The position numbers and the translations under genes are program-made. From Betaproteobacteria bacterium (GTDB lineage: Bacteria; Pseudomonadota; Gammaproteobacteria; Burkholderiales; Rhodocyclaceae), in assembly GCA_009782565.1 (NCBI GenBank), contig WRIU01000013.1, forward strand, positions 1-41,371: a stretch of 41,371 nucleotides of DNA. The letters are read 5' to 3'. The notes beneath the pieces are model-generated. The model saw only the letters and a program-made list of their open reading frames with translations, did not search any database and was not told the DNA's origin. Of this stretch, positions 9,807 to 28,169 are shown one piece after another; the first letter of the stretch is position 1; each line of letters starts with the position of its first letter.

Positions 9807-10370
9807 TCAGCGCTGCTTGCGGCGGCGGGCAACCGCACCCACCATGCCAAGCCCCACCAACAGCATCGCCCAGGTTTCCGGTTCGGGAACGGGGCTGACG
9901 CCAGTGACGGTTACTTTCCAAGCTCCATTACCAAATCCGCCTGGCCACAAACCCGGTCCTTCGGCACCAACGGTGGGATACGCGTTACCGATGACAAAGT
10001 AATATTTACCATCGTCGATCTGACCCAAGTTGATAGACGCATTCCAGTCCTGCATGAACATGTTGTTGCTATACGCGAGCTCTTCACCCTGCGAATTAAA
10101 CACTTTCAAGTACGGAGCAAATTGAACTGTGCTGTAATCATCCGTAAAGGAACTCGTGAACAGCGATACTCCATTTGGGTTAACGGCATTATTTACCTCG
10201 AACCACCCTTTCTCCCATGTGTCCGTCATCTCTTGGAACCAAAAGTTTTCGGTTGTAGAGGTAAACACAAGAGTACCGGTCTCAGGATCATAAGTAGCAG
10301 CCTGAACGGCAACAGTAGCGGAGAAAAGACCTACAGCCAGAACCGCTGCGGAAAGAAGCTTCATTTTCAT
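9807..10370 (-). CDS. PEP-CTERM sorting-domain protein
   Basis: A 187-residue exported protein with a signal peptide (MKMKLLSAAVLAVGLFSA, likely cut after AVQA) and a C-terminal sorting signal: VPEPETWAML, a hydrophobic segment, then RRRKQR. Such proteins are processed by exosortase and are linked to extracellular polysaccharide and floc formation in several betaproteobacteria. No exosortase gene is in this window. The middle is a Trp/Asn/Gly-rich beta-sandwich-like region without catalytic motifs. The start is ATG 10370, preceded by GGGGGT; the frame extends upstream but the signal peptide sets the start. A sigma-54-like promoter and an inverted repeat stand upstream. Confidence 0.9.
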   Translation of the reverse strand: MKMKLLSAAVLAVGLFSATVAVQAATYDPETGTLVFTSTTENFWFQEMTDTWEKGWFEVNNAVNPNGVSLFTSSFTDDYSTVQFAPYLKVFNSQGEELAYSNNMFMQDWNASINLGQIDDGKYYFVIGNAYPTVGAEGPGLWPGGFGNGAWKVTVTGVSPVPEPETWAMLLVGLGMVGAVARRRKQR

Positions 10371-10413
10371 TGTTACGACCCCCTGTTTAATAAACTTAGC
10401 TGACAGAAAAGCA

Positions 10414-10429
10414 AGCAAGTTTGATACCA
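10414..10429 (-). promoter_or_regulatory. Candidate sigma-54 (-24/-12) promoter of the PEP-CTERM gene
   Basis: On the minus strand the sequence reads TGGTAT-N5-TTGCT. The GG and GC are separated by exactly ten bases, and the -12 element matches the consensus fully. The predicted transcript start is near 10403, about 33 bases before the ATG. Sigma-54 control of PEP-CTERM genes through the PrsK/PrsR system is known in floc-forming betaproteobacteria. Confidence 0.6.
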
Positions 10430-10459
10430 GAAAAAATACTTCATTGATTTTCATCAATT

Positions 10460-15855: not shown

Positions 15856-16875
15856 ATGGCAGTCACCCCGGCTCAAAAAATCGAACTCGTTTGCCCCGCT
15901 GGCGGCCTACCGTCGCTCAAGGCGGCGGTCGACAACGGCGCGGATTGCGTTTATTTCGGTTTCAAAGACGCCACCAACGCCCGCAACTTCACGGGGCTGA
16001 ACTTCGACCTCGCCCAGATTCAGGAAGGCATCACCTATGCCCGCCAGCACGGGCGCAAGGTTTTTTTGGCCCTCAACACCTACCCGCTCGACGCCAATCA
16101 GGCGGACTGGATCGCGGCCATCGACCGCGCCGCCGAACTGGGGGTCGACGCCGTTATCATGGCCGACCCCGGCCTCATGGCCTACGCTGCCCGCGCCTAC
16201 CCGGAATTGCGCCTGCACCTGTCCGTGCAAGGCTCGGCAACGAGCTATGAGGCCATCAACTACTACCATGAGCGCTTCGGCATCCAGCGCGCGGTGCTCC
16301 CGCGTGTGCTCTCGCTCGCGCAGATCGAGCAGCTTGTCGCCAACACCCCGGTAGAAATCGAAGTGTTCGGCTTCGGCGGCCTGTGCGTGATGGTGGAAGG
16401 CCGTTGCGCCCTGTCCGCTTACGCGACGGGGCAGTCCCCCAACTGTTTCGGAGCCTGTTCGCCCGATGCCTTCGTGCGGTGGGAACAAACCCCGCGCGGC
16501 ATGGAAACCCGCTTGAACGGCATCCTCATCAACCGCTACGCAGACGATGAGCGCGCGAGCTACCCCACGCTGTGCAAAGGCCGTTTCACCGTCAAGGACG
16601 AAACCTATTACGCCATCGAAGAACCCGCCAGCCTCAACACCTTGGAAATGCTTCCCATGCTGGCTGGCGCGGGCATCTCGGCGATCAAGATCGAAGGGCG
16701 GCAGCGCAACCCGGCCTACGTCGCGCAAGTCACGAAAGTCTGGCGCGCCGCGCTCGACGCCTTTGCTCGCGACGGGGAACGCTTCACGGCACAGGAGGAC
16801 TGGATGGCCGAACTCAACAAGGTCTCCGAAGGCCAAAGCTATACCCTGGGCGCATACTACCGCCCCTGGAAATGA
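15856..16875 (+). CDS. ubiU: Oxygen-independent ubiquinone hydroxylation protein UbiU (U32 peptidase-like)
   Basis: Partner of UbiV in the hydroxylation of ubiquinone precursors without oxygen; in E. coli the UbiU-UbiV complex carries 4Fe-4S clusters and takes oxygen from prephenate. The four cluster cysteines of E. coli UbiU (169, 176, 193, 232) have counterparts here at C177, C184, C201 and C240 with identical spacing. The N-terminus IELVCPAGGLPSLKAAVDNG and the VMVEGRCALS region are those of the YhbU group of the U32 family. Length 339 residues. A GAGAAAAGAT stretch precedes the ATG. The stop codon overlaps an ATG of the following gene in ATGA, indicating coupled synthesis of the two subunits. 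Confidence 0.95.
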   Translation: MAVTPAQKIELVCPAGGLPSLKAAVDNGADCVYFGFKDATNARNFTGLNFDLAQIQEGITYARQHGRKVFLALNTYPLDANQADWIAAIDRAAELGVDAVIMADPGLMAYAARAYPELRLHLSVQGSATSYEAINYYHERFGIQRAVLPRVLSLAQIEQLVANTPVEIEVFGFGGLCVMVEGRCALSAYATGQSPNCFGACSPDAFVRWEQTPRGMETRLNGILINRYADDERASYPTLCKGRFTVKDETYYAIEEPASLNTLEMLPMLAGAGISAIKIEGRQRNPAYVAQVTKVWRAALDAFARDGERFTAQEDWMAELNKVSEGQSYTLGAYYRPWK

Positions 16876-16889
16876 GCGAGCATCACGCA

Positions 16890-18395
16890 ATGAAACTCTC
16901 CCTCGGTCCCCTGCTCTATCACTGGCCGCGCCAGCAGATATTCGACTTCTACGAAACCGTCGCCGCCAGCAATGTGATCGACATCGTCTATCTGGGCGAG
17001 ACCGTCTGTTCGCGACGCCACGAACTGCGCTGTGAAGACTGGTTCGAGCTTGCCGCCCGGATCAAAGCCTCCGGCAAGGAAGCGATCCTTTCCACCCAAA
17101 CGCTGATCGAATCCGAATCCGACCTTAAAACCCTGCGCCGCATCGTCGAACAACAGGATTTCCGCATCGAGGCCAACGACATGGGCGCGGTACGGCTGCT
17201 TGCCGCCGCTGCTCGCCGCGACTGGGTCGCCGGGGCAACGCTCAATGTGTTCAATCCCACCACGCTGACCCTGCTCACCTCCGATGGCGCAAACCGATGG
17301 GCCGCGCCGCCCGAAATGCCCGGAGCCGATATTGTCGGCCTGCGCGCCAGCCTGCCCGCGCCCATCGAAACCGAAATTTTCGCCTATGGCCGCCTGCCGC
17401 TTGCCTACTCCGCGCGTTGCTTCACCGCCCGCCATTACAACCTGCAAAAAGACGCTTGCGAATTCCGCTGCATACAAGACAGTGACGGCATGCTTCTACG
17501 CACCCGCGAAGGCGAGGCATTCCTGACCCTCAACGGCATCCAGACCCAATCTGCGCGGGTCTACAACCTGCTCGGCGACCTTCCCCTCATCGCGGGTCGC
17601 GCAGAAATTCTGCGAATCAGCCCGCAAAGCGCGCACACGCTGGAAATCGCCAACCTGTTCCGCGAGGCGCTCGATGGGCGCATCGCCCCGGCAGCCGCCT
17701 TCGAGGCCAGCCTTGCCCTGATGCCGGAAGCCCCCTGCAACGGTTTCTGGCATGGACGCGCGGGACACGAACAGCTTGCCGCAGAGGATACCGGGCAACC
17801 CTCAAGCGCCCTGGAGGAAAACACCGCTTCCGCCGGAACGCCTGACGAGCCGCCCATTGCTGAAACAGCCTCCGTTACACCCTCCCTGTCGGCCTCTCTC
17901 GGCAAGCTCCTGCCCGCCGGGTTACGCGCACGCCTCGAAGAGCGTTTCAGGCACTTGGCAAAAGACCCTCACCTGCGCCTGCCCCCCTTCACCGTGCCGG
18001 AGCCGCTCGCAAGGATCAATGCCTGTCTGCCAAAACTCCCGCCCACGTTGGCACTCACTACGGCGCTCAACCTTGCGCCGGAGAGCGTACTGCCCCGCGC
18101 GCCGCTCGCCCCGCTCACTGGCCGCCGCCTATGCCTGTGCGTGCTCGATGCCGGGCTACGGCTCGATTTCACGCTCAACGCCAATGGCCGCTTCCGTCCC
18201 TGCCACGCAAGCGCCCCGCCAGAAATGACCATCTCCGCCTCGTTGCGCGATTTCATCGCCCTCGCCTTGGGCGAGGAAGACGCCGATACCCTGTTCTTCG
18301 CCCGGAGGTTGCTGATGGAAGGCGACACCTCCCTCGGCGTACTGGTCAAAAACACAATCTCTTCGGCCAAGTGGAGCACCCTTACGCGGCACTGA
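16890..18395 (+). CDS. ubiV: UbiV-UbiT fusion protein (oxygen-independent ubiquinone synthesis)
   Basis: A single 501-residue reading frame joins two proteins that are separate in E. coli. Residues 1-297 are UbiV: the N-terminus MKLSLGPLLYHWPRQQ, GRLPLAYSARCFTARH, and cluster cysteines C40, C177, C190 and C194 matching E. coli C39, C180, C193 and C197. Residues about 298-365 are a Pro/Ala/Ser/Thr/Glu-rich linker. Residues about 366-497 are an SCP2-type lipid-binding domain with the UbiT signature DTLFFARRLLMEGDTSLG plus VLVKN. The fusion would tether the hydroxylase subunit to the quinone-lipid carrier. The start follows the E. coli alignment; an in-frame ATG at 16872, overlapping the ubiU stop in ATGA, would add six residues. 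No frameshift or internal stop is seen. Confidence 0.92.
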   Translation: MKLSLGPLLYHWPRQQIFDFYETVAASNVIDIVYLGETVCSRRHELRCEDWFELAARIKASGKEAILSTQTLIESESDLKTLRRIVEQQDFRIEANDMGAVRLLAAAARRDWVAGATLNVFNPTTLTLLTSDGANRWAAPPEMPGADIVGLRASLPAPIETEIFAYGRLPLAYSARCFTARHYNLQKDACEFRCIQDSDGMLLRTREGEAFLTLNGIQTQSARVYNLLGDLPLIAGRAEILRISPQSAHTLEIANLFREALDGRIAPAAAFEASLALMPEAPCNGFWHGRAGHEQLAAEDTGQPSSALEENTASAGTPDEPPIAETASVTPSLSASLGKLLPAGLRARLEERFRHLAKDPHLRLPPFTVPEPLARINACLPKLPPTLALTTALNLAPESVLPRAPLAPLTGRRLCLCVLDAGLRLDFTLNANGRFRPCHASAPPEMTISASLRDFIALALGEEDADTLFFARRLLMEGDTSLGVLVKNTISSAKWSTLTRH

Positions 18396-19129: not shown

Positions 19130-19819
19130 TCACGGCGAAGCCGACGCTTTGAACTCCCGCGCACCGTAATGGCGGAAGCGTTCCAGCGCTTCGCCCATTT
19201 CTTCTTCAGACAACAACACCGGCGGCCCCGGCTGGCAAGCGCGCCAGTATTGCTCGCACAATGTTTCCAGTTCGATAGCCTGAGCCAGCGCGTGTGCAAG
19301 GTCGCGCCCATAAGCCAGCATCCCGTGATTGGCGAGCAGACAGGCATTGCGTCCGGCCAGCGCCGCCAGCACGTTTTTCGAGAGCGCTTCCGTGCCGAAC
19401 GTCGCGTAAGTGGCGCATCGCACACTGTCGCCTCCGAAGAGCGCAATCATGTAATGAAACGGCGGGATGTCCAGACGCTGGCAAGCCAGCGCCGTTGCAA
19501 ACGGCGAATGGGCATGGACAACCGCCCCAGCTTCGGGAGCGTTCGCGTAAATGTCGCGGTGAATCCGCCATTCCGAAGAAGGAGCAAGCCCCCCTGCCCC
19601 GTCCCTCTTGCAATCGCCCTCCATCGTCACCCGCACCATGTCTGCGACAGAATACCGCTCCGGCGGCAAGCCGGACGGCGTAATCAAAAATCCGTCGCCA
19701 CAACGCGCGCTGACGTTGCCCGAAGCGCCGACATTGAGCCGATGATCCTTCAAGGCGCATGCCACCGCCAGCAACTCACCGGCCAACGCATTCCCGCTTT
19801 GATTCCTGTCCTTGCTCAT
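19130..19819 (-). CDS. Class II aldolase (likely 5-methylthioribulose-/5-deoxyribulose-1-phosphate aldolase)
   Basis: A 229-residue zinc-dependent aldolase of the AraD/FucA family. NVGASGNVSARCGDGFLITPSG is the phosphate-binding region, VVHAHSPFATALA carries two of the zinc His ligands and LLANHGMLAYG the third. It is translationally coupled to mtnA (ATGA overlap). In Rhodospirillum rubrum and some E. coli strains an mtnA-aldolase pair forms the DHAP shunt, splitting 5-methylthioribulose 1-phosphate or 5-deoxyribulose 1-phosphate to DHAP and a small aldehyde. MtnB dehydratase belongs to the same superfamily and is the main alternative, but no other genes of the classical methionine salvage cycle lie here. 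I favour the aldolase reading at moderate confidence. Confidence 0.8.
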   Translation of the reverse strand: MSKDRNQSGNALAGELLAVACALKDHRLNVGASGNVSARCGDGFLITPSGLPPERYSVADMVRVTMEGDCKRDGAGGLAPSSEWRIHRDIYANAPEAGAVVHAHSPFATALACQRLDIPPFHYMIALFGGDSVRCATYATFGTEALSKNVLAALAGRNACLLANHGMLAYGRDLAHALAQAIELETLCEQYWRACQPGPPVLLSEEEMGEALERFRHYGAREFKASASP

Positions 19820-20886
19820 GCCTGGACACCCCGCAAAAAATCGGCCAAACCATCAACCCCAATCACGCCGCGCTCGGTAATGAAGCCCGAAACGAGCGCC
19901 GCCGGAGTCACGTCGAAAGCGGGATTGACGGCGCGGGCATCTTTCGGGGCCAAGCTCAAACGCCTTGGGCAACCCTCCTCGTCCAGCCCGTCGATGAAGA
20001 GCACTTCCTCCGCCGCGCGCTCTTCCACCGGAATCGCCTCACCGCAGGCCGTCCCCGGATCGAAAGTCGACAATGGGGCCGCGACATAGAACGGAACTCC
20101 CGCCGCGCGCGCAGCCAATGCCTTTAAGTACGTGCCTACCTTGTTCGCGGTATCGCCATTGGCCGCGATGCGATCCGCGCCAACGATCACCGCATCGGCT
20201 TCGCCGCGCATGAGCAGCAACCCGGCAGCATTGTCGGCCATCAGCGTATATTTGACGCCAGCGGCGGCAAGTTCCCAGGCCGTCAGCAGCCCCTGGTTGC
20301 GTGGGCGCGTCTCGGACACGAGCACCTCCACCTCCAGCCCCTCGGCACGAGCCGCGTAAATTGGCGCAAGCGCCGTCCCCATCCCCGCCGTCGCCAGCCA
20401 ACCCGCATTGCAATGAGTCATCACCCGCAAGGGGCGTCCTCCCCGCGCGCGCAAGGCGCGAAGCAGCCCCAACCCGTGCGCCCCGATGGCCGCGCACATT
20501 GCGGCATCCTCCGTGAGAATGGCCGCAGCCTCAGCCCATGCCGCCTCGCGCCGCGCGTGAGAGGGAAGCGGCCTCAACCGCTCATCCATGCGATTCAGTG
20601 CCCAAGCAAGATTAACCGCCGTTGGCCTGGTTGCGCGCAACACGGCCAGCGCGTAATCGAGCGCGGCATCATTCGCCTCCCCTCTTGCCAGCGCCACGGC
20701 CACGCCAAAGGCCGCAGCGCAGCCAATCAGCGGCGCGCCGCGCACCCGCATTGCGGAAATGGACTCGGCAACATCTTCGAGCGTGGCAAGCCGACGCTCC
20801 GCAACGCGCCAGGGCAAGCAGGTCTGGTCAAGGACGGTCAGGCCGTCGCCGTCGCGCCGCAGGGTAGCAATGGGTTGGACGAACAT
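19816..20886 (-). CDS. mtnA: S-methyl-5-thioribose-1-phosphate isomerase
   Basis: Converts 5-methylthioribose 1-phosphate (and in shunt pathways 5-deoxyribose 1-phosphate) to the ribulose form. Family motifs: MRVRGAPLIGCAAAFG, PTAVNLAWALNRM, MTHCNAGWLATAG with the catalytic Cys, SETRPRNQG, and VGADRIAANGDTANKVGTY with the catalytic Asp. From ATG 20886 it is 356 residues, as expected; a TTG 13 codons upstream is less likely. It ends in a 4-base overlap with the aldolase gene and begins 135 bases downstream of speD, whose pathway partner SpeE releases methylthioadenosine, the precursor of this substrate. Confidence 0.95.
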   Translation of the reverse strand: MFVQPIATLRRDGDGLTVLDQTCLPWRVAERRLATLEDVAESISAMRVRGAPLIGCAAAFGVAVALARGEANDAALDYALAVLRATRPTAVNLAWALNRMDERLRPLPSHARREAAWAEAAAILTEDAAMCAAIGAHGLGLLRALRARGGRPLRVMTHCNAGWLATAGMGTALAPIYAARAEGLEVEVLVSETRPRNQGLLTAWELAAAGVKYTLMADNAAGLLLMRGEADAVIVGADRIAANGDTANKVGTYLKALAARAAGVPFYVAAPLSTFDPGTACGEAIPVEERAAEEVLFIDGLDEEGCPRRLSLAPKDARAVNPAFDVTPAALVSGFITERGVIGVDGLADFLRGVQA

Positions 20887-21021
20887 GGATAGGCAAGCAG
20901 GCAACAAAACAGGATCCAGGTGCAATTTTAAGCCCTGATGTCCATTTCATTCGTTCTCTATTGAAGCAACGTAAATGTCACAAATGATGGATTTCGCAAA
21001 GCTCAATCCCTCTACACGGGC

Positions 21022-21390
21022 TTACCCTCCGCGCCAGACATCCCGGCGGTGCGAATTTTCCGGTTGGAAGGCGCGTAAGAGGCGGTCATAGACGCTTTCC
21101 GCCGCGGCGCGGTTGTCGCGGCTGAAATTGCAGACATAGAGGTCAAATGTTACGGCCTGCCGTTCCGGCCAGGTGTGGACGGCAAGATGCGATTCGGCCA
21201 GGATCACTGCGCCTGTTGCGCCCAAAGGCGCTTCCGGCGTACCGAAAACATGAAACAGCTTGCCGACGACCGTTAATCCCGCTTCCTGGCAGGCGGACAG
21301 GCAAAGCTGCTCCAGCGCGCCAGAAGAACGCATGAGTTCCTCGTCGGCATGGCATTGCCGGAATTCCGCGAGGATGTGCAAGCCTTCCAT
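21022..21390 (-). CDS. speD: S-adenosylmethionine decarboxylase proenzyme
   Basis: Makes decarboxylated SAM, the aminopropyl donor for spermidine-type products. The 122-residue form is the short SpeH-like prokaryotic type. The self-cleavage site lies in LAESHLAVHTWPE, with Ser67 becoming the pyruvoyl group; the invariant His and Cys positions follow (VTFDLYVCNF). The upstream FAD-oxidoreductase gene stops one base before this start region, so it is the last gene of the seven-gene minus-strand operon. The C-terminus (NSHRRDVWRGG) is short but normal for the type. Confidence 0.95.
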   Translation of the reverse strand: MEGLHILAEFRQCHADEELMRSSGALEQLCLSACQEAGLTVVGKLFHVFGTPEAPLGATGAVILAESHLAVHTWPERQAVTFDLYVCNFSRDNRAAAESVYDRLLRAFQPENSHRRDVWRGG

Positions 21391-21391
21391 G

Positions 21392-23062
21392 TCAGATCAG
21401 CCTCGTCCGCAAATGGCCGTGCGCGGCCAGTATTTCTTCGGCAACCCGCACGCCGTGGTAATTGGCTTCTTCAAAAAGGGAAAAACCCGAAACGTCGGCA
21501 TGCGCGAAACGCACCTTGCCCCATCCCGCCGTCAGGCGCATACGCCGCATTTCGTCACGAAAACCCGGTAGCGGCCGGGCCATCGCATGGCCATAGCGGA
21601 AAATATCCAGGTGGGTGACGCGATTGCGGAGAGCGCCATGTGCATGAGACAAATCCTTGAGGATGATTTCCGCCCAGCCCTCATATGGCATATCGAGCAG
21701 CATTTGCCGGGCAGCGGCAGGGGGATATTCCGAGAGGGCGTAGTAATAGGTCAGTACCGTCGGGCCGGAAGCAAGGCGGATGTCCTGGTGGGTCGCCACC
21801 ACATACCCCAGGGCACGGCTGTCCTGCAACACATTGTCCCAGGCGATTCCGGCACCCGCACCCGGCTCAGGCAGCGGCGCGTCCAGAGTCAGGTTGGCCA
21901 CCAGCCAGGGCGCGTAAGTGATGGTGGAAATCGTCTCGGCCAGACCGTCCGGCAGCCCGGAGGCCAGATGGGGCAAAAGGAACAGCGGCGCGGCCCAGAT
22001 GACGTGTCCGGCATGAACGCGCAGGCTCGTCTGGCTCGCCTCATTCCAGACATCGACCTCGCATCCCACTGCATTTTGTCTCAGCGCGTAAACCGCTTGC
22101 CCTGTGCGTAACCAACCTTCGTCGGGCAGGCAGGCATTGGTGATGAGCTTGTGCAACCCATCGACCAGCCAACCGTTGCCTTCCGGCGCGGTCAGTACGC
22201 CATCATCCGTTTTCGCGCCAAATGCCGAACCTTTGCCCGCGCGGCAGGCAAAATAGTGAATCCCGGCCCAGGCGGAAACCTGGCGGTAGTCGGTACCGTA
22301 ATCATCGCGGCAAACGTAATTGACATACCAATGAAGCGAGGGCGCGTCGAACCCTTCCCGCGCCATCCAGTCGCGCATGCTCAGGCGATCCAGTTCCGTC
22401 CATTCGGGCGCATCGCTGCTATAGGCCATCGGCAAGGCGAATGCCCTGCGGCTTGCCGCGTCGCGCGCGTCGCGCCATTGCGCCATGCGGGCAAAAAAGC
22501 GCTCCTGTTGTGCCAATTCAACCAGGGGGACTCCCAGGCGCGGCACGATTCCTTCCTGCCAGAATCCCAGCCGGTAAAGCCGTTCGTGTAGCGGATGGCA
22601 CAGATAGCGCTCATCATATTCCGGGGTTTCTGTTTCCGGATCACCACCCAGTATGCCCAACTCCGCAAGCAGCGCCCGCACCGCGCGGGCTTCGCGGTTC
22701 GGCAGCGGCAAATAATGCGCGCCCAGCGGATAGCGGGAAATGGCGTTTTCGCCGTAACGCGCGTTGCCTCCCGGCTTATTTTCCAGTTCCAGGACGAGAA
22801 AACGTGGACGGGCAGGAAGCGTTTCCCGGCAAAACCGCCAGGCAGCGGAAAGCCCCGCGACACCCGCACCGACGATCAGCACGGGAATATCGATGGTCTC
22901 CGTCGGCGGGGGAAAATCGGTCTGCCGCAGGCGATGCCCAAGCCCGGAATCACTGCCGCCCAGTTCACCAGGCGGCAACGATGGCGTCTGCGGCGCGCAC
23001 CCCGTCAAAACCGCCGCGCATCCGGCTATGCCGCAAGTGGCCAGGAAATCCCGACGCTGCAT
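21392..23062 (-). CDS. FAD-dependent oxidoreductase with Tat/lipoprotein signal
   Basis: A 556-residue flavin amine-oxidase-like protein. The start ATG at 23062 shares a base with the speE stop (TGATG) and gives QRRDFLATCGIAGCAAVLTGC, a twin-arginine signal that also ends in a lipobox-like LTGC (C22). This suggests folding with FAD in the cytosol, Tat export and lipid anchoring. The Rossmann motif VLIVGAGVAGLSAAWR starts at about residue 61, followed by ELENKPGGNARYGEN and PLGAHYLPLP. The C-terminal FAD contact is in RFAHADVSGFSLFEEANYHGVRVAEEI. The substrate is unknown; a polyamine or aminopropylated compound is an inference from the position between speE and speD. Confidence 0.85.
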   Translation of the reverse strand: MQRRDFLATCGIAGCAAVLTGCAPQTPSLPPGELGGSDSGLGHRLRQTDFPPPTETIDIPVLIVGAGVAGLSAAWRFCRETLPARPRFLVLELENKPGGNARYGENAISRYPLGAHYLPLPNREARAVRALLAELGILGGDPETETPEYDERYLCHPLHERLYRLGFWQEGIVPRLGVPLVELAQQERFFARMAQWRDARDAASRRAFALPMAYSSDAPEWTELDRLSMRDWMAREGFDAPSLHWYVNYVCRDDYGTDYRQVSAWAGIHYFACRAGKGSAFGAKTDDGVLTAPEGNGWLVDGLHKLITNACLPDEGWLRTGQAVYALRQNAVGCEVDVWNEASQTSLRVHAGHVIWAAPLFLLPHLASGLPDGLAETISTITYAPWLVANLTLDAPLPEPGAGAGIAWDNVLQDSRALGYVVATHQDIRLASGPTVLTYYYALSEYPPAAARQMLLDMPYEGWAEIILKDLSHAHGALRNRVTHLDIFRYGHAMARPLPGFRDEMRRMRLTAGWGKVRFAHADVSGFSLFEEANYHGVRVAEEILAAHGHLRTRLI

Positions 23063-24606
23063 CAATGCACCGCCTTTTTCCATTCTTCCTCGAACGTCCG
23101 CACCAACCCCTGATCGTTGAGGCGATTGGGTTCGGCAGGGACACGGGACATATCGGCGGGAAAACGGAACAGATCCGGCGTGTTCTCAATAGTGAGAAAA
23201 CGCAGCCCTTCAGGATAAGATATTGGCATTTCCGGAACGTCTTCGCCAGCCAGTACATAACCCCATTCCCCAAAGCTGGGTACGAGCGCATGGTATGGAG
23301 CGGTTTTGAGCCCTGCCGCCTCAAGCGTGGTGACGATGATCCAGAATGCGCGCCGCGCGTAATACGGCGAGGTGGACTGCACCACGACGCGCCCGCCGGG
23401 CGCGAGATGGCGCTTGAGCAGACGGTAAAAGCCGGTCGAATAGAGTTTGCCGAGGGCAAAATTGGAAGGATCGGGAAAATCCGCGACCACGAAATCGAAC
23501 CCGCCCACGTGTTTCTCCAGCCAACGCGCGGCGTCATCGTTGATGATCGTTACCCGCGCATCGTTCAGGGCATCGCCATTCAGGCGTTTGAGCAGCGGCG
23601 CGCTGGAAAACAGCCGCGTCATGGCCGGGTCGAGGTCGACCAGGGTAATGGACTCGACCTGCGGGTAACGCAGGATCTCCCGAACAGCCAGACCGTCCCC
23701 GCCCCCCAATACCAGGATTTTTCGGGCATGCGGCAAAGCCGCCAATCCGGGGTGCACCAGCGCCTCGTGATAGCGGTATTCATCCTGTGAAGAAAATTGC
23801 AAATTCTGGTTCAGGAACAGGCGTACATCGTCGCGCCAGCGGGTCACGACGATGCGCTGATAGGGAGAGCTTTCCGCATGGATGATCGTGTCGGCATACA
23901 ACCAGCTTTCCGCGATGTCGGACACCTTTCCGGCCACGGCGAAACCGCCCAGCAACAGGCCAATGCAAACAATCGCCATACCATACAGCCCCGTCAGCCG
24001 ACGATGGCCGAAAAGCCGCAGCGCGTAAAGCGCCACCCCCGCGTTGAGCACTCCGAACAGCAGCCCGGTACGCATCATGCCGAGATAGGGCGCGAGTAAA
24101 ATGGGAAATAGCAGCGACACCGCGAGCGCGCCAAGATAATCCACTGCGAGGACGCGGGAAACCAGATCCTTGAAACGCACCTCCCGTTTCAGAATCCGCA
24201 TGACAAGGGGAATCTCCAGCCCCACCAGCACGCCCACGACCAGCACGGCAAAATACAGCAGGACGCGGAAAGGCCCGGTTTGCGAAGCAAACGCAAGAAA
24301 AAGCCCCATCGGGGCGAAGCCACCGAGCACACCGACCGCAAGTTCGATCTGCACGAACCGCCGCACCAGATCGCCGTCGATATGGCGGGAGAGCCATGAG
24401 CCAAGGCCCATCGCAAAGAGATACGCGCCGATGACCGTGGAAAACTGGGTAATGGAATCACCGAGCAGGTAACTGGCCAGTGCCGCCGCCACCAACTCAT
24501 AGGCCAACCCGCAAGAAGCAATGACGAAAACCGACACGAGCAGCGCGTGCTGCATGCGCGCGGGCGTCGGTGATTCCTGTGCCCGTGAAATGGAAACGTC
24601 AGCCAA
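23062..24606 (-). CDS. speE: Membrane-integrated polyamine aminopropyltransferase (SpeE-type)
   Basis: A 514-residue two-part protein. Residues about 20-225 contain seven or so membrane spans (ALLVSVFVIASCGLAYELV, STVIGAYLFAMGLGS and others), as in membrane-fused spermidine synthases. Residues about 235-480 are the catalytic domain: SSPYQRIVVT, DEYRYHEALVHP, the decarboxylated-SAM-binding VLGGGDGLAVREIL (299-312) and LVDLDPAM. Where soluble SpeE has D-S-T-D-P, this protein has D-F-P-D-P (376-380), keeping both acidic residues but changing the two between, so substrate choice may differ. The start is a TTG at 24606; ATG 24555 is an alternative. It is the fifth gene of the operon. Confidence 0.9.
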   Translation of the reverse strand: MADVSISRAQESPTPARMQHALLVSVFVIASCGLAYELVAAALASYLLGDSITQFSTVIGAYLFAMGLGSWLSRHIDGDLVRRFVQIELAVGVLGGFAPMGLFLAFASQTGPFRVLLYFAVLVVGVLVGLEIPLVMRILKREVRFKDLVSRVLAVDYLGALAVSLLFPILLAPYLGMMRTGLLFGVLNAGVALYALRLFGHRRLTGLYGMAIVCIGLLLGGFAVAGKVSDIAESWLYADTIIHAESSPYQRIVVTRWRDDVRLFLNQNLQFSSQDEYRYHEALVHPGLAALPHARKILVLGGGDGLAVREILRYPQVESITLVDLDPAMTRLFSSAPLLKRLNGDALNDARVTIINDDAARWLEKHVGGFDFVVADFPDPSNFALGKLYSTGFYRLLKRHLAPGGRVVVQSTSPYYARRAFWIIVTTLEAAGLKTAPYHALVPSFGEWGYVLAGEDVPEMPISYPEGLRFLTIENTPDLFRFPADMSRVPAEPNRLNDQGLVRTFEEEWKKAVH

Positions 24607-24641
24607 GGCAAAACCGCCGTAAAGCGTTCTTCAAGGCATCC

Positions 24642-24860
24642 TCAATGAATGGCTGAGGCGACGATGATAGCAATGCCTATACACATCGCAGCAATAACCG
24701 TGGCTAATGGCTGATTTCTCTCCTTGACGATTTCCTTCCACAAATCGTCATGTGGCGTCACTTTCTCAAGAATAAGAAACGAGACCCAAAACACAACGAC
24801 TCCGAGCACGGAATACAGGAGTGAATTGAAAAGCACTTTCAAGTCAATGAATTCAGGCAT
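24642..24860 (-). CDS. DUF350 (YjfL-type) small membrane protein
   Basis: A 72-residue protein with two membrane spans: LLYSVLGVVVFWVSFLIL and PLATVIAAMCIGIAIIVASA, joined by EKVTPHDDLWKEIVKERN. This is one unit of the DUF350 family, usually found as one or two such repeats; E. coli YjfL in the cluster with the glutathionylspermidine-synthase-like YjfC is a member. The ATG at 24860 has AGGAG six bases upstream, which fixes the start; a longer frame upstream is the shadow of the preceding small gene. It follows that gene's stop by ten bases and precedes speE by 35 bases. Confidence 0.88.
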   Translation of the reverse strand: MPEFIDLKVLFNSLLYSVLGVVVFWVSFLILEKVTPHDDLWKEIVKERNQPLATVIAAMCIGIAIIVASAIH

Positions 24861-24870
24861 GTGTTTCTCC

Positions 24871-25011
24871 TTATTTGTGAAAAATGGTGCGCGCATCCGT
24901 TTGTCCAGTTGCGCGTCCAGTTGCCGCAGAATCAAAAAGGCTGTAGCCATTGTATTGCGCCCAAGAAAAGAACGCAAACGCCAGAATAGAAAAAACGAGA
25001 TAAGGTTTCAT
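24871..25011 (-). CDS. 46-residue secreted or membrane-anchored small protein
   Basis: A short gene that gene finders with a length cut-off would miss. It encodes a hydrophobic N-terminus (KPYLVFSILAFAFFSWAQ) followed by a short polar part with SLFDSAATGRATG and ending RTIFHK. The hydrophobic segment could be a signal peptide or a membrane anchor. The start codon shares a base with the stop of the DUF4178 gene (TAATG), which is strong evidence for coupled translation. The ribosome binding site of the DUF350 gene overlaps its end. I know of no characterised homologue; similar small genes probably occur in related operons, which a search could confirm. Confidence 0.7.
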   Translation of the reverse strand: MKPYLVFSILAFAFFSWAQYNGYSLFDSAATGRATGQTDARTIFHK

Positions 25012-26963
25012 TAATCATCTCCTCCGTTGAATCGAATAGAAAAAAGTTTATTTTCACTTTCAAATAGAAGACCTGGATGATCGCTTTCTTTCCAACGCGC
25101 AACTTCGAATGAAGTGAATTTGAAAAGAAGTATCACAGGCCAAATAAACAGTCCGAAAAAAAGAATCCAAAAATTTCCCCACAGTGCACGATATCCTGTT
25201 ATCTCCAGGGATAATACTTTAGGAACACTTTTTTCACTGGATTCAATTCCCTCTAACATTAGACGCCAAGTGCCAGGTGGCACATTTTGAAAACTCAAGG
25301 TACGACTCCTGCTGCCTTCACTCCAATAACCATCTTCCGAATCCCATCCGCTGTAATAACTTATTTCTGTGCTACCATATCTGACCTCTCCGTCCGATTC
25401 CCTAATGAACGCCAAACCAACTTCAAACCATCCATTATCTAATTCTTTAGCAGTACTTTTCAACGCCAAGTTAGTCTTCTTATTCAAGTTAAAAGGGGGC
25501 AAAAGCACGGCATCAGAACCGACAAAAATGGTAGCAGTGTTTTGTGCAATAATTTTATTTGAAGACAGAGTAAACTGTACAGCAAAAGCCAACGAAATAA
25601 ATAAAATGAAACACTTCCATATCGTTTGTAATTTCTTTTTCAAAAGATTTGGTTGATTGGCGTAAACGCCAACAGGTGTCGGCAGACTTTTGAGTTTGAA
25701 TGCAGAAAAGATCTCCTGAAACGGCACATATTCAGCAAGACTCCAGGAAATTTCATTGTCCGTCCTTTCCAGTGTCAACATGAACGGCGGCGCGACGTAA
25801 TCGACGAGTTTCACCGTGTCCTTTGTTTTGACCAGCCAAGTGAATTCGCCGATCACATAATCTACTACGCCCTTATAGCTCTGAAAATGCCTGAAAGATT
25901 GCCCTTGATAGTTCAAGTGAGAGGTTTCTGTATCCGGCGTTTTCGGAATGGCTTCCAGCGCATCCGCCACGCTCCAGTGCCCGTCGTATTCGACCAGGAA
26001 ACGATAGCCAGGAGAACCAACGCGAGCCAGCAGATATTCCCGCCAGTAATACCTCTGCCCTTCGGAAACCATGTAACGCTGCATGAAACCGATGACTTCC
26101 AGTTTGTCGCCCCGAAGTACGCCGGTACAGCCTATGGGAAGCAATGGAATTACTTTCCGGGAACCTGCGAGGTTGATCTCGTCGATCAAGCGCCCCGTTT
26201 CCGCGTCGCTGATACTGCCGCAGTGAGCGCAGGCGATGGAGACAATCCCTTCGTGCCTGAGTTCGAACGTCGCACCGCACTTCTTGCAAAGCAGGGCTTT
26301 GGCCCGAAGCTTTGGCCCGGTAGGAATCGGGTCGTCTTCACGCAGGTTGCGCCATTTCAAACCGGAAAAATCTATTGTTTCCCCAATGAAAAGCAGCGGG
26401 GTTTTTTCATCCTCGCTGTAATCCAGCGTAACGAACGCATTTCCTGCATTGGAGCGCAAATCCGCAACCGGAGCGGGATAGCCCCCGCCAACCCTGAACG
26501 GCAATTCGCCTTCCCCGGCCACACATGTAGCGCGCTCGATGTTGGTGACGGTCCATTCGGCATTCCCTAGCCGCAGACGGTACCCGGAACTCAACTCGGA
26601 AAAAGCCGGTGCGCTGCCCGTCAAAGCTCGTTGAAAAGAAATTGAAAACGTGCCCGCCGCTTCGGAAAGCCAGCCGGTGCGCTGATCGTCGAACAGCAGG
26701 AACCATTCGTTCCACAATCCCTGTTCGTACTGCAACTGGATGCGGCCTACGACGGTAAAAATCTTTTGGCGGTAAACACCCTGTGCTCCGATCTGCAGGC
26801 GTGAACGGTCTTGCGCCAATTCCGCCATCTTGCCCAGGTTTTCGATTTTGCCGTCGACATTGAGCAGCGTTGCCCGGCAGTACTCGCAAACCGCCAAAAT
26901 CGAAACACCGCTCCGGAACGTGACCGAGGCTCCGCAGGATGGGCATTGAGCGGCCTTGGCCAT
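25011..26963 (-). CDS. DUF4178 protein with two zinc ribbons and membrane segments
   Basis: A 650-residue protein with an internal duplication. A first zinc ribbon (C7, C10, C26, C29) precedes a beta-rich DUF4178-type domain (about 55-215, including GRIQLQYEQGLWNEWFLLFDD cut to its core WNEWFLLFDD). A second ribbon (C226, C229, C245, C248) precedes another such domain (about 270-420, with RYYWREYLL). Two membrane spans follow, at about 449-467 and 593-616, enclosing a beta-rich extracytoplasmic part of some 125 residues, with a short cytoplasmic tail. The last third of the gene is distinctly AT-richer than the first. The biochemical role is unknown. It starts seven bases after the SPFH gene and is coupled to the small gene behind it. 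Confidence 0.85.
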   Translation of the reverse strand: MAKAAQCPSCGASVTFRSGVSILAVCEYCRATLLNVDGKIENLGKMAELAQDRSRLQIGAQGVYRQKIFTVVGRIQLQYEQGLWNEWFLLFDDQRTGWLSEAAGTFSISFQRALTGSAPAFSELSSGYRLRLGNAEWTVTNIERATCVAGEGELPFRVGGGYPAPVADLRSNAGNAFVTLDYSEDEKTPLLFIGETIDFSGLKWRNLREDDPIPTGPKLRAKALLCKKCGATFELRHEGIVSIACAHCGSISDAETGRLIDEINLAGSRKVIPLLPIGCTGVLRGDKLEVIGFMQRYMVSEGQRYYWREYLLARVGSPGYRFLVEYDGHWSVADALEAIPKTPDTETSHLNYQGQSFRHFQSYKGVVDYVIGEFTWLVKTKDTVKLVDYVAPPFMLTLERTDNEISWSLAEYVPFQEIFSAFKLKSLPTPVGVYANQPNLLKKKLQTIWKCFILFISLAFAVQFTLSSNKIIAQNTATIFVGSDAVLLPPFNLNKKTNLALKSTAKELDNGWFEVGLAFIRESDGEVRYGSTEISYYSGWDSEDGYWSEGSRSRTLSFQNVPPGTWRLMLEGIESSEKSVPKVLSLEITGYRALWGNFWILFFGLFIWPVILLFKFTSFEVARWKESDHPGLLFESENKLFSIRFNGGDD

Positions 26964-26970
26964 GAGGCAA

Positions 26971-27984
26971 TCAGTCCAGTTTTTTGAGAATTTCCGCTTT
27001 TTTCGCGTCGAATTCGTCCTGGCTCAGAATGCCCTTGCCTACCAGCGCATGCAATTTCTCCAGCGTCGCAGCAATCTCATCGGCCAGTGAAGTGCCGGAT
27101 GAGGGCGCGGGAGCGGGAGCTTGAGTTGCCGCGAGCATACTCTGTCCCATGACTTGCCCCATCGAGATGCCCGCGCCGATGCCTACTCCCGCGCCTGCCG
27201 CGCCGCCTTCGTTCTGCGCCGCCAGCGGAATGCTGCTGGCGACCTGATAGCGGGTGTATTGCCCCAGGTCGCCAACCAGGTTCATGTTGATGCGGGCATC
27301 GAGCGCCTTCTCCAGTTCTTCCGGCAGGGAAATATTCTGTACGACAAAATTGTCCAGTGCCAGCCCGAAACTGTCGAACAACGGCGCAACTTTCTCCTTG
27401 AGAGCCTGCCCGAAAAGTTCCTGGTTGGCGGCCATGTCGAGAAACGGCACACTCGTTTCACCAAACAGGCCAGCGATATGGCCCACGATGGTATTTCGCA
27501 ACTGGCTTTCCAGTTCTTCCACGCCATAGCGTTCCAACGTACCGGAAACAGAGGTATGAAATTTTTTCGCATCGACAAGGCGATAGGAATAAATGCCGAA
27601 CGCGCGAAGGCGTACCGCTCCGAATTCCGCGTCCCGCACCGTAACCGGATTGGCCGTTCCCCATTTACGGTCAAGCCGCTGGCGTGTGCTGAAAAAATAA
27701 ACGTCCGACTTGAAGGGCGACTCGAAGAGCTTGTCCCAGTTCTTCAGGTAGGTCAGTACCGGAAGGGTATTGGTCGTGAGTTCATACCGTCCAGGCTCGA
27801 ATACATCGGCAATCTGGCCTTCATTGACGAATACCGACACTTGCGATTCACGCACCGTGAGAATCGCGCCATTGCGGATTTCCATGCCCTGCATGGGAAA
27901 ACGCCATGCAATAACGTCGTCGTCATTCTCTGCACACTGAATGACATCTATGAACTGCTTCTTGATGAAGTCCATCAGCGCCAT
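26971..27984 (-). CDS. SPFH/Band 7-like protein with C-terminal SHOCT domain
   Basis: A 337-residue protein of the group often labelled 'virion core protein-like' SPFH proteins. The N-terminus MDFIKKQFIDVIQCAENDDD leads into VIAWRFPMQGMEIRNGAILTVRESQVSVF, described here by its ends; the SPFH fold continues to about residue 240. A Gly/Ala-rich linker follows, then a SHOCT-type helix pair at the end (LEKLHALVGKGILSQDEFDAKKAEIL, about 308-333), a domain found on oligomerising or membrane-associated proteins. No membrane helix is evident. The ATG at 27984 has AAAGG eight bases upstream; a second ATG three codons on is possible. It is the first gene of the polyamine-linked operon and probably forms a scaffold there. 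Confidence 0.88.
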   Translation of the reverse strand: MALMDFIKKQFIDVIQCAENDDDVIAWRFPMQGMEIRNGAILTVRESQVSVFVNEGQIADVFEPGRYELTTNTLPVLTYLKNWDKLFESPFKSDVYFFSTRQRLDRKWGTANPVTVRDAEFGAVRLRAFGIYSYRLVDAKKFHTSVSGTLERYGVEELESQLRNTIVGHIAGLFGETSVPFLDMAANQELFGQALKEKVAPLFDSFGLALDNFVVQNISLPEELEKALDARINMNLVGDLGQYTRYQVASSIPLAAQNEGGAAGAGVGIGAGISMGQVMGQSMLAATQAPAPAPSSGTSLADEIAATLEKLHALVGKGILSQDEFDAKKAEILKKLD

Positions 27985-28043
27985 ATCATCGACCTTTTGT
28001 CATGTTATGAACAAAAACAAAATCATAGAGCAAAGAGGCTGGC

Positions 28044-28169
28044 ATGTCGATGCAGCAAGACAGTAAAAATCACCACGGCATGAACAAGCGAGAAGAAGGG
28101 CTTTATCTCAAGAACAAAGTCGATACCTTCAGGGAGGCAACAAGCCGCCTTATTCCCGCGTCATGGTAG
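28044..28169 (+). CDS. Candidate 41-residue small ORF
   Basis: Divergent from the SPFH operon. The ATG at 28044 has AAGAGG five bases upstream, and TTGTCA (27998-28003) with a plausible spacer to AATCAT could be a promoter. The product is hydrophilic and basic (MSMQQDSKNHHGMNKREEGL at its start) with no membrane span or known motif. Evidence is limited to the ribosome binding site and open frame; it may be chance. Confidence 0.3.
   Translation: MSMQQDSKNHHGMNKREEGLYLKNKVDTFREATSRLIPASW

Follow-up and report, generated by a model that had tools for sequence, protein, structure and literature searches.

What does an aminopropyltransferase act on when it is fused to a membrane domain and encoded amid SPFH, DUF4178 and DUF350 genes? 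This question is raised by seven packed minus-strand genes at positions 21,022–27,984 of contig WRIU01000013.1 (assembly GCA_009782565.1; its 41,371 nucleotides, the whole stretch analysed, are hereafter designated the window), which encode, in the order of reading, an SPFH protein, a DUF4178 protein, a 46-residue protein, a DUF350 protein, a membrane-fused SpeE, a flavin adenine dinucleotide (FAD) amine-oxidase-like protein and SpeD. All seven open reading frames (ORFs) were found there with the families named in a preliminary description of this DNA. The acceptor of the fusion, which is widespread, was reportedly left as an open question in 2019. The locus belongs to an operon kind that is already published, and what is added here is the near-constant C-terminal Lys of the small protein, which names a single candidate residue for that acceptor.

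The gene for the 46-residue protein (24,871–25,011) directly follows that for DUF4178, whose stop it overlaps by one base at its start, and GGAG-type sequence precedes both this gene and the DUF350 gene. The product, which has no family match above cut-off, consists of one membrane segment, a variable and often Gly/Ser-rich stretch, and a C-terminal Lys (…FHK in the window), the candidate site of aminopropylation. The preliminary description listed the gene and gave it no role, though it is the informative part of the locus and is conserved across related loci. When the anchored ORF after DUF4178 was picked blind to its ending, one was found at 99 of 121 loci, and 94 end in Lys (HK, 66; GK, 22; VK, 4; IK, 2), encoded by AAA in 55 and AAG in 39 and followed by any of the three stop codons. 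Among the 309 candidate ORFs after DUF4178 (109 loci), HK is the most frequent ending (64), ahead of IH (28), a usual DUF350 end, and GK (24), mostly from tails. Counting all carriers, a Lys-ended tail is encoded at 120 of the 121 DUF4178 loci (120 distinct DUF4178 sequences), a count that includes seven hand-placed rows: L052 and L054, which share one DUF4178 end and where the script chose another ORF with an HK ORF present; L069, with its HK ORF beside SpeD; L127, where another frame reads …GGK; and L122, L123 and L131, which end in GK but fall under the hydropathy cut-off. Locus L230 is cut by its contig.

As the background at these loci, Lys ends 1 of 88 SpeD, 5 of 103 FAD, 2 of 171 SpeE, 1 of 87 DUF350 and 1 of 93 SPFH proteins (pooled, 10 of 542), together with 126 of 2,329 ORFs of at least 250 residues lacking a family match; DUF4178 proteins end in Lys in 24 of 156 cases, 19 of which are fused tails. 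Kinship among the loci inflates the Lys-end counts, but the median pairwise identity of the small proteins, 30% over 1,500 random pairs, and the use of both Lys codons and all stop codons argue against kinship as their sole source. On a tree of 145 fusions, carrier and ending type changed eight times, six being the minimum possible, with labels that are partly hand-set and a quick tree that carries a long-branch warning. The predicted small protein is, by these comparisons, a conserved, Lys-ended and otherwise freely variable partner. The small proteins of L121–L166 (Acidobacteria and Gemmatimonadota) carry an NVPxSxRDNPGxYR-like motif before a GGK or RGK end, which is missing in most of those of the HK type.

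The same tail is found on other carriers. It is fused to DUF4178 at 19 loci, and in 18 of 18 fused DUF4178 proteins of one clade a single transmembrane (TM)-like segment is followed by a tail of 28–58 residues ending in HK; one of these 18, at L139, has no Y_Y_Y match, unlike the DUF4178 protein of the window. Another 28 fusion loci have no DUF4178 match; at 25 of them, a same-strand ORF rich in Gly, Ser, Arg, Asn and Thr and ending in Lys was found within 8 kb, against 4 in the same search on the opposite strand, the Lys end being part of the filter and the search therefore not blind. These alternative carriers are lipoprotein-like in the PspA-type operons. Profiles from which the last 15 residues had been omitted gave 15, 8 and 15 matches, all ending in Lys, of which only 5, 1 and 1 are independent members, the seeds having been chosen by their Lys end; 28 of the 33 matches of profile E end in Lys, and the other five read as long ORFs in other frames because the seeds held upstream out-of-frame letters. 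In seven genomes of the order, no DUF4178 lies within about 10 kb of the fusion, but each of them has one at a greater distance; the six readable ones of these distant loci end in HK. DUF4178 was found in none of four genomes of the same family lacking the fusion. An almost complete fusion is present in 12 plasmid records, all from proteobacteria or gemmatimonads, with no actinobacterial DUF4247-type locus among them. These comparisons show that the predicted seven-TM SpeE fusion goes with a predicted anchored, Lys-ended tail, whatever protein carries it.

Moreover, the ending of the tail tends to follow the enzyme. In E. coli, yjfL (DUF350) adjoins yjfM (DUF1190) and yjfC (annotated as peptide–spermidine ligase), so that the link between DUF350 and this operon drawn in the preliminary description is real, and ygiB adjoins ygiC. 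YjfM ends in …GHWGG and YgiB in …SMGG, and L223–L227 have GG ends too, an adjacent ATP-grasp gene being seen at four of these loci. Among nine DUF1190 tails beside an ATP-grasp ligase, seven end in GG, one in AG (L228) and one in A (L222), and none in Lys. The L222 frame has the usual RGGFGS and then runs into the ATP-grasp start before it ends in A, which may be an assembly frame error. Apparently, the tail mostly ends in Gly-Gly with the ligase and in Lys with the aminopropyltransferase, in keeping with the needs of the two enzymes for a carboxylate and an amine, respectively. The near-constant Lys, which is kept across carriers and unseen beside ATP-grasp ligases, lends support, short of proof, to this residue as the acceptor.

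In the mechanism that we propose, the operon would decorate a membrane-tethered peptide. SpeD would make decarboxylated S-adenosylmethionine (SAM or AdoMet; dcSAM in its decarboxylated form) as the donor, and the SpeE domain would move the aminopropyl group from dcSAM to the ε-amine of the tail's C-terminal Lys, with release of 5'-methylthioadenosine (MTA). The Lys side chain, with four methylenes and an amine, is presumably close enough to putrescine for the addition to give a tethered spermidine-like end, -(CH2)4-NH-(CH2)3-NH2, and the surface of the inner membrane would thereby acquire a tethered polycation. Less certainly, the reaction may occur at the periplasmic face, the seven-TM domain and/or DUF350 carrying the donor across; the FAD amine oxidase, exported by twin-arginine translocation (Tat), may then act on the aminopropylated end; and SPFH and DUF4178 may keep the assembly within a membrane domain. 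That the tail's C-terminal Lys is the acceptor of the SpeE fusion is a tentative assignment, to which we give slightly less than an even chance, and an extracytoplasmic aminopropyltransferase in the full sense, in which dcSAM crosses via the seven-TM domain with DUF350 and a periplasmic SpeE domain caps the Lys, is doubtful. The envelope-modifying membrane machine with an aminopropylated product put forward in the preliminary description is also the best reading here, whereas the product export that it offered besides is without direct support.

The SpeE fusion (23,062–24,606) matches NCBIfam PRK03612 at 669.7 bits against a cut-off of 472, and its AlphaFold2 model, with a mean predicted local distance difference test (pLDDT) score of 90.4, places seven long helices, probably TM, ahead of a SpeE domain whose fold is close to solved aminopropyltransferases. 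GGGDG and both Asp residues of DxxDP (D376 and D379), which we take to be the catalytic pair, are invariant in 37 sequences, and near-constant motifs specific to the fusion are VPSFGEWG (143 of 170) and Q[STA]TSP (161 of 170). The start at TTG 24,606 is uncertain, since an ATG is present at codon 18 and in 6 of 14 aligned relatives the start lies no more than about three residues from it. In the 37 sequences, the density of Lys and Arg is 0.155 per residue over the N-terminus and loops 2–3, 4–5 and 6–7, and 0.074 on the other side (by region, 0.12–0.19 in the former and 0.003, 0.08 and 0.14 in the remaining loops). Because of this distribution and the seven helices, the SpeE domain is predicted, if not beyond doubt, to lie on the periplasmic side. 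A low Cys content would fit this location indirectly: the SpeE domain has a mean of 0.40 Cys in 164 fusions, which share ancestry (none in 102), and of 2.6 in 20 SpeE-like proteins of the order with no TM-like segment before the domain (none in 2).

Several observations weigh against this proposal. As to topology, one outer loop, at residues 171–180, has the same density of basic residues as the N-terminus, charge leaves the orientation of the small protein undecided in 41 of 94, the Acidobacteria tails are basic, and dcSAM is, to our knowledge, not known to reach the periplasm. As to the tail, none was found at L073, where DUF4178 is present, or within 8 kb of the fusions at L207 and L210; L189, where likewise no Lys tail was seen with the fusion, lies at a contig end, and the tail fused to DUF4178 at L185 keeps its Lys but is preceded by two TM-like segments. 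No DUF4178 match lies within 8 kb at 16 of 80 loci from named genomes, many of them on short contigs, and the Gly-Gly rule has its two exceptions in nine. The FAD step is probably not core, because there is no FAD match among the PspA-type operons listed. Finally, putrescine or cadaverine may be present in the host, because its genome has one OKR-type decarboxylase, and ordinary spermidine synthesis may take place.

The fusion would then be an ordinary membrane-bound spermidine synthase that delivers free polyamine, made from putrescine or cadaverine, at the membrane, the tail only docking or sensing; this we judge improbable. It agrees with the source assembly (2.27 Mb, 99% complete, the window being one contig), where besides the single OKR-type decarboxylase the window fusion is the only SpeE-domain match and the window speD the only AdoMet decarboxylase match, and with the retained Asp pair and the NCBIfam name, polyamine aminopropyltransferase; yet 6 of the 48 fusion genomes of the order (G224, G423, G451, G470, G477 and G568) have a second SpeE-like gene, such fusions reportedly failed to complement a spermidine synthase mutant in a 2019 study, and the constant Lys is left unexplained. 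Putrescine supply was tried as a decider and dropped: the PF02784 matches in the source genome are LysA and an exosortase-associated decarboxylase, but the OKR-type decarboxylase bars any claim that putrescine is absent.

Two further explanations give the Lys another use. In one, which we consider quite unlikely, the tail Lys is crosslinked to peptidoglycan by L,D-transpeptidases while SpeE has a different substrate. A C-terminal Lys serves for such a wall crosslink in Braun's lipoprotein, but the window protein has no Cys and hence no lipobox, and a wall tether leaves unexplained why Lys goes with SpeE and mostly Gly-Gly with ATP-grasp ligases. An absence of YkuD could not serve to exclude it, since 57 of 60 fusion genomes have a YkuD match (three in the window genome); it is weakened by three genomes only, G555, G456 and G451, which have no YkuD match and yet keep the HK tail at loci L066, L076 and L081. 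In the other, to which we likewise give little credence, the C-terminal Lys, usually after His or Gly, is a recognition signal bound non-covalently by a partner such as DUF350 or the SpeE pocket in a regulatory role. C-terminal residues are often sorting or binding signals, and a Lys end lodged in the SpeE acceptor pocket could inhibit or gate the enzyme; that tails beside ATP-grasp ligases end differently nevertheless favours covalent use of the C terminus, and the tail is kept among listed operons without an SPFH match, so that SPFH is not a universal reader.

The genes that the proposed aminopropylation of the tail Lys would bring together are linked beyond chance in the sequenced genomes. 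Within 8 kb of 46 fusions of the order (one per genome, 46 of 48 found) lie DUF4178 in 38, FAD in 38, SPFH in 28, SpeD in 26 and DUF350 in 25, the last being undercounted by a profile that partly misses its duplicated form; within 8 kb of the 80 loci from named genomes, where many contigs are short, the respective numbers are 64, 64, 55, 45 and 46. A frequent order is SPFH-(SpeD)-DUF4178-small gene-DUF350-SpeE-FAD-(SpeD); in another arrangement, SPFH-DUF4178-small gene-SpeD and SpeE-FAD are transcribed divergently, so that a single transcript is not required. In Novosphingobium sp. ES2-1, where DUF4178 is divided between two genes, the same functions are all annotated, among them a 48-residue coding sequence that ends in …SHK. 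The single linked system of largely conserved order that the preliminary description envisaged is borne out by these counts: rather than being scattered, the genes keep their linkage. At a threshold of E 1e-120, 48 of 300 genomes in the order hold the fusion, the source genome included, and at E 1e-60 matches are present in 44 of 398 genomes of the phylum; for DUF4178, 6 of 321 genomes in the class gave a match, 5 of them above cut-off. The closest fusions in the tree are from one betaproteobacterium and one Azoarcus metagenome-assembled genome (MAG), and the named genomes with the fusion (at least 80 loci) belong to Pseudomonadota, Acidobacteriota, Gemmatimonadota and Verrucomicrobiota, with single Elusimicrobiota and Fibrobacterota MAGs.

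From the SPFH gene onward, the intergenic gaps in the window are 7, −1, 10, 35, −22 and 1 bases. The SPFH/Band-7 protein (26,971–27,984; 337 residues), a predicted scaffold, matches Pfam Band_7_1 at 8e-79 and, at its C terminus, SHOCT at 1.2e-6. The DUF4178 protein (25,011–26,963; 650 residues) has two DUF4178 domains plus zinc-ribbon and Y_Y_Y matches in Pfam, and its AlphaFold2 model (mean pLDDT, 87.9) comprises zinc ribbons, beta domains and two helices that are TM by hydropathy, at 441–467 and 595–626, which enclose a beta-sandwich at 471–590 and are followed by an acidic end. The DUF350 protein (24,642–24,860; Pfam, 7.5e-13) most likely starts at ATG 24,860, giving 72 residues, rather than in a longer TTG ORF. 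The G+C content of the DUF350, small and DUF4178 genes (24,642–26,963) is 45–49%, or 0.40–0.52 at third codon positions, lower than in the operon genes on either side and in the window as a whole (59%). The FAD protein (21,392–23,083), identified by profile matches including NAD_binding_8, has a Tat signal and a lipobox-like Cys; in its family, 56 of 65 evaluated proteins have an RRx[FLV]-like motif and 35 of 65 a lipobox-like site, and a short N-terminal match gives polyamine oxidase and spermidine dehydrogenase as its nearest solved relatives. SpeD (21,022–21,390) matches TIGR03330 at 76.5 bits, barely over the cut-off of 75.65.

By consensus match only, a promoter-like site (28,022–28,050) lies upstream of the SPFH gene and a terminator-like hairpin (28,239–28,213) between phaC and the operon, after phaC, both on the minus strand. 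On the same strand, 96 bases after speD, mtnA (methylthioribose-1-phosphate isomerase; 19,816–20,925) and a class II (fuculose/ribulose-phosphate-like) aldolase gene (together 19,130–20,925) resemble an MTA-recycling pair and may provide local MTA salvage; as a component of the system this was rejected, neither having been found at the 51 related loci tested. Elsewhere in the window, a single plus-strand ORF (16,572–18,395) matches both UbiV and UbiT of anaerobic ubiquinone synthesis, by fusion or sequence error, and a PEP-CTERM FxDxF protein is encoded at 9,807–10,457 on the minus strand, the exosortase-associated decarboxylase lying elsewhere in the genome (G000:C1:387884).

Among known systems, spermidine synthase shares with the window fusion the SAM site and the Asp pair, and a Braun-type tether shares with the 46-residue protein the C-terminal Lys but not the lipobox Cys. 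Aminopropylation of microcin C by MccD/MccE and hypusine formation also put a polyamine-type group on a peptide or protein; as generally described, they differ from the window system in acceptor, enzymes and purpose. Li et al. (2019; Biochem J 476:2579), whom Ravi et al. (2024) cite, reportedly linked an AdoMet decarboxylase to a major facilitator superfamily–spermidine synthase fusion and DUF350 and proposed an acceptor other than putrescine; the fusion and DUF350 are the same here, and where that study is said to name no acceptor, a candidate is now given.

The cluster, for the preliminary description the best candidate for an undescribed system, is conserved across several phyla and already outlined in the accessible text of PMC11237479 (Ravi et al. 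2024). The operons described there contain DUF350, DUF4178 and band-7/SHOCT proteins, an AdoMet decarboxylase, a polyamine oxidase and a spermidine synthase fused to TM segments, and the paper raises the idea that other substrates are aminopropylated. Its operons have PspA-CesT or band-7-SHOCT partners, with components spread over several operon groups, and its band-7 protein is given a C-terminal two-TM segment. The window resembles these operons in its SpeE behind a seven-TM domain, its DUF350 and its DUF4178, and resembles one variant in its band-7 protein with SHOCT, its AdoMet decarboxylase and its polyamine-oxidase-like gene. In the main text of that paper, as accessible, 'lysine' and 'small protein' do not occur, and a lipoprotein is named but not its ending; the accessible parts of PMC12730115, PMC10407285, PMC11107197, PMC12568646, PMC10948618, PMC12270671 and PMC12506659, like those of PMC11237479, name neither the tail nor its Lys. 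Searches that covered few subscription journals found no literature on aminopropylated lysine, peptide or protein, on a periplasmic spermidine synthase, or on an aminopropyltransferase with a C-terminal lysine and lipoprotein.

The nearest parallel is the E. coli system of the peptide–spermidine ligases YjfC/YgiC with YjfM/YgiB (Pederick et al. 2023, as far as accessible), which likewise combines a DUF350 neighbour (yjfL), an anchored Gly/Ser-rich tail protein and polyamine chemistry. Unlike it, with its ATP-grasp ligase and mostly Gly-Gly ends, the window has a SpeE fusion and an HK end, and no match to the GSP_synth ATP-grasp ligase (PF03738) was found in the source genome. A similar chemical end would be reached in E. 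coli by another route, the ligation of spermidine to the peptide. If the proposed aminopropylation holds, an ATP-grasp ligase and an aminopropyltransferase, though unrelated, would serve one purpose, a polyamine-like end on a membrane-tethered tail; DUF350, DUF4178 and their SPFH or PspA partners would have a common job; and the modified Lys would represent a new type of protein modification, perhaps introduced outside the cytoplasm, in parallel to peptide–spermidine ligation.

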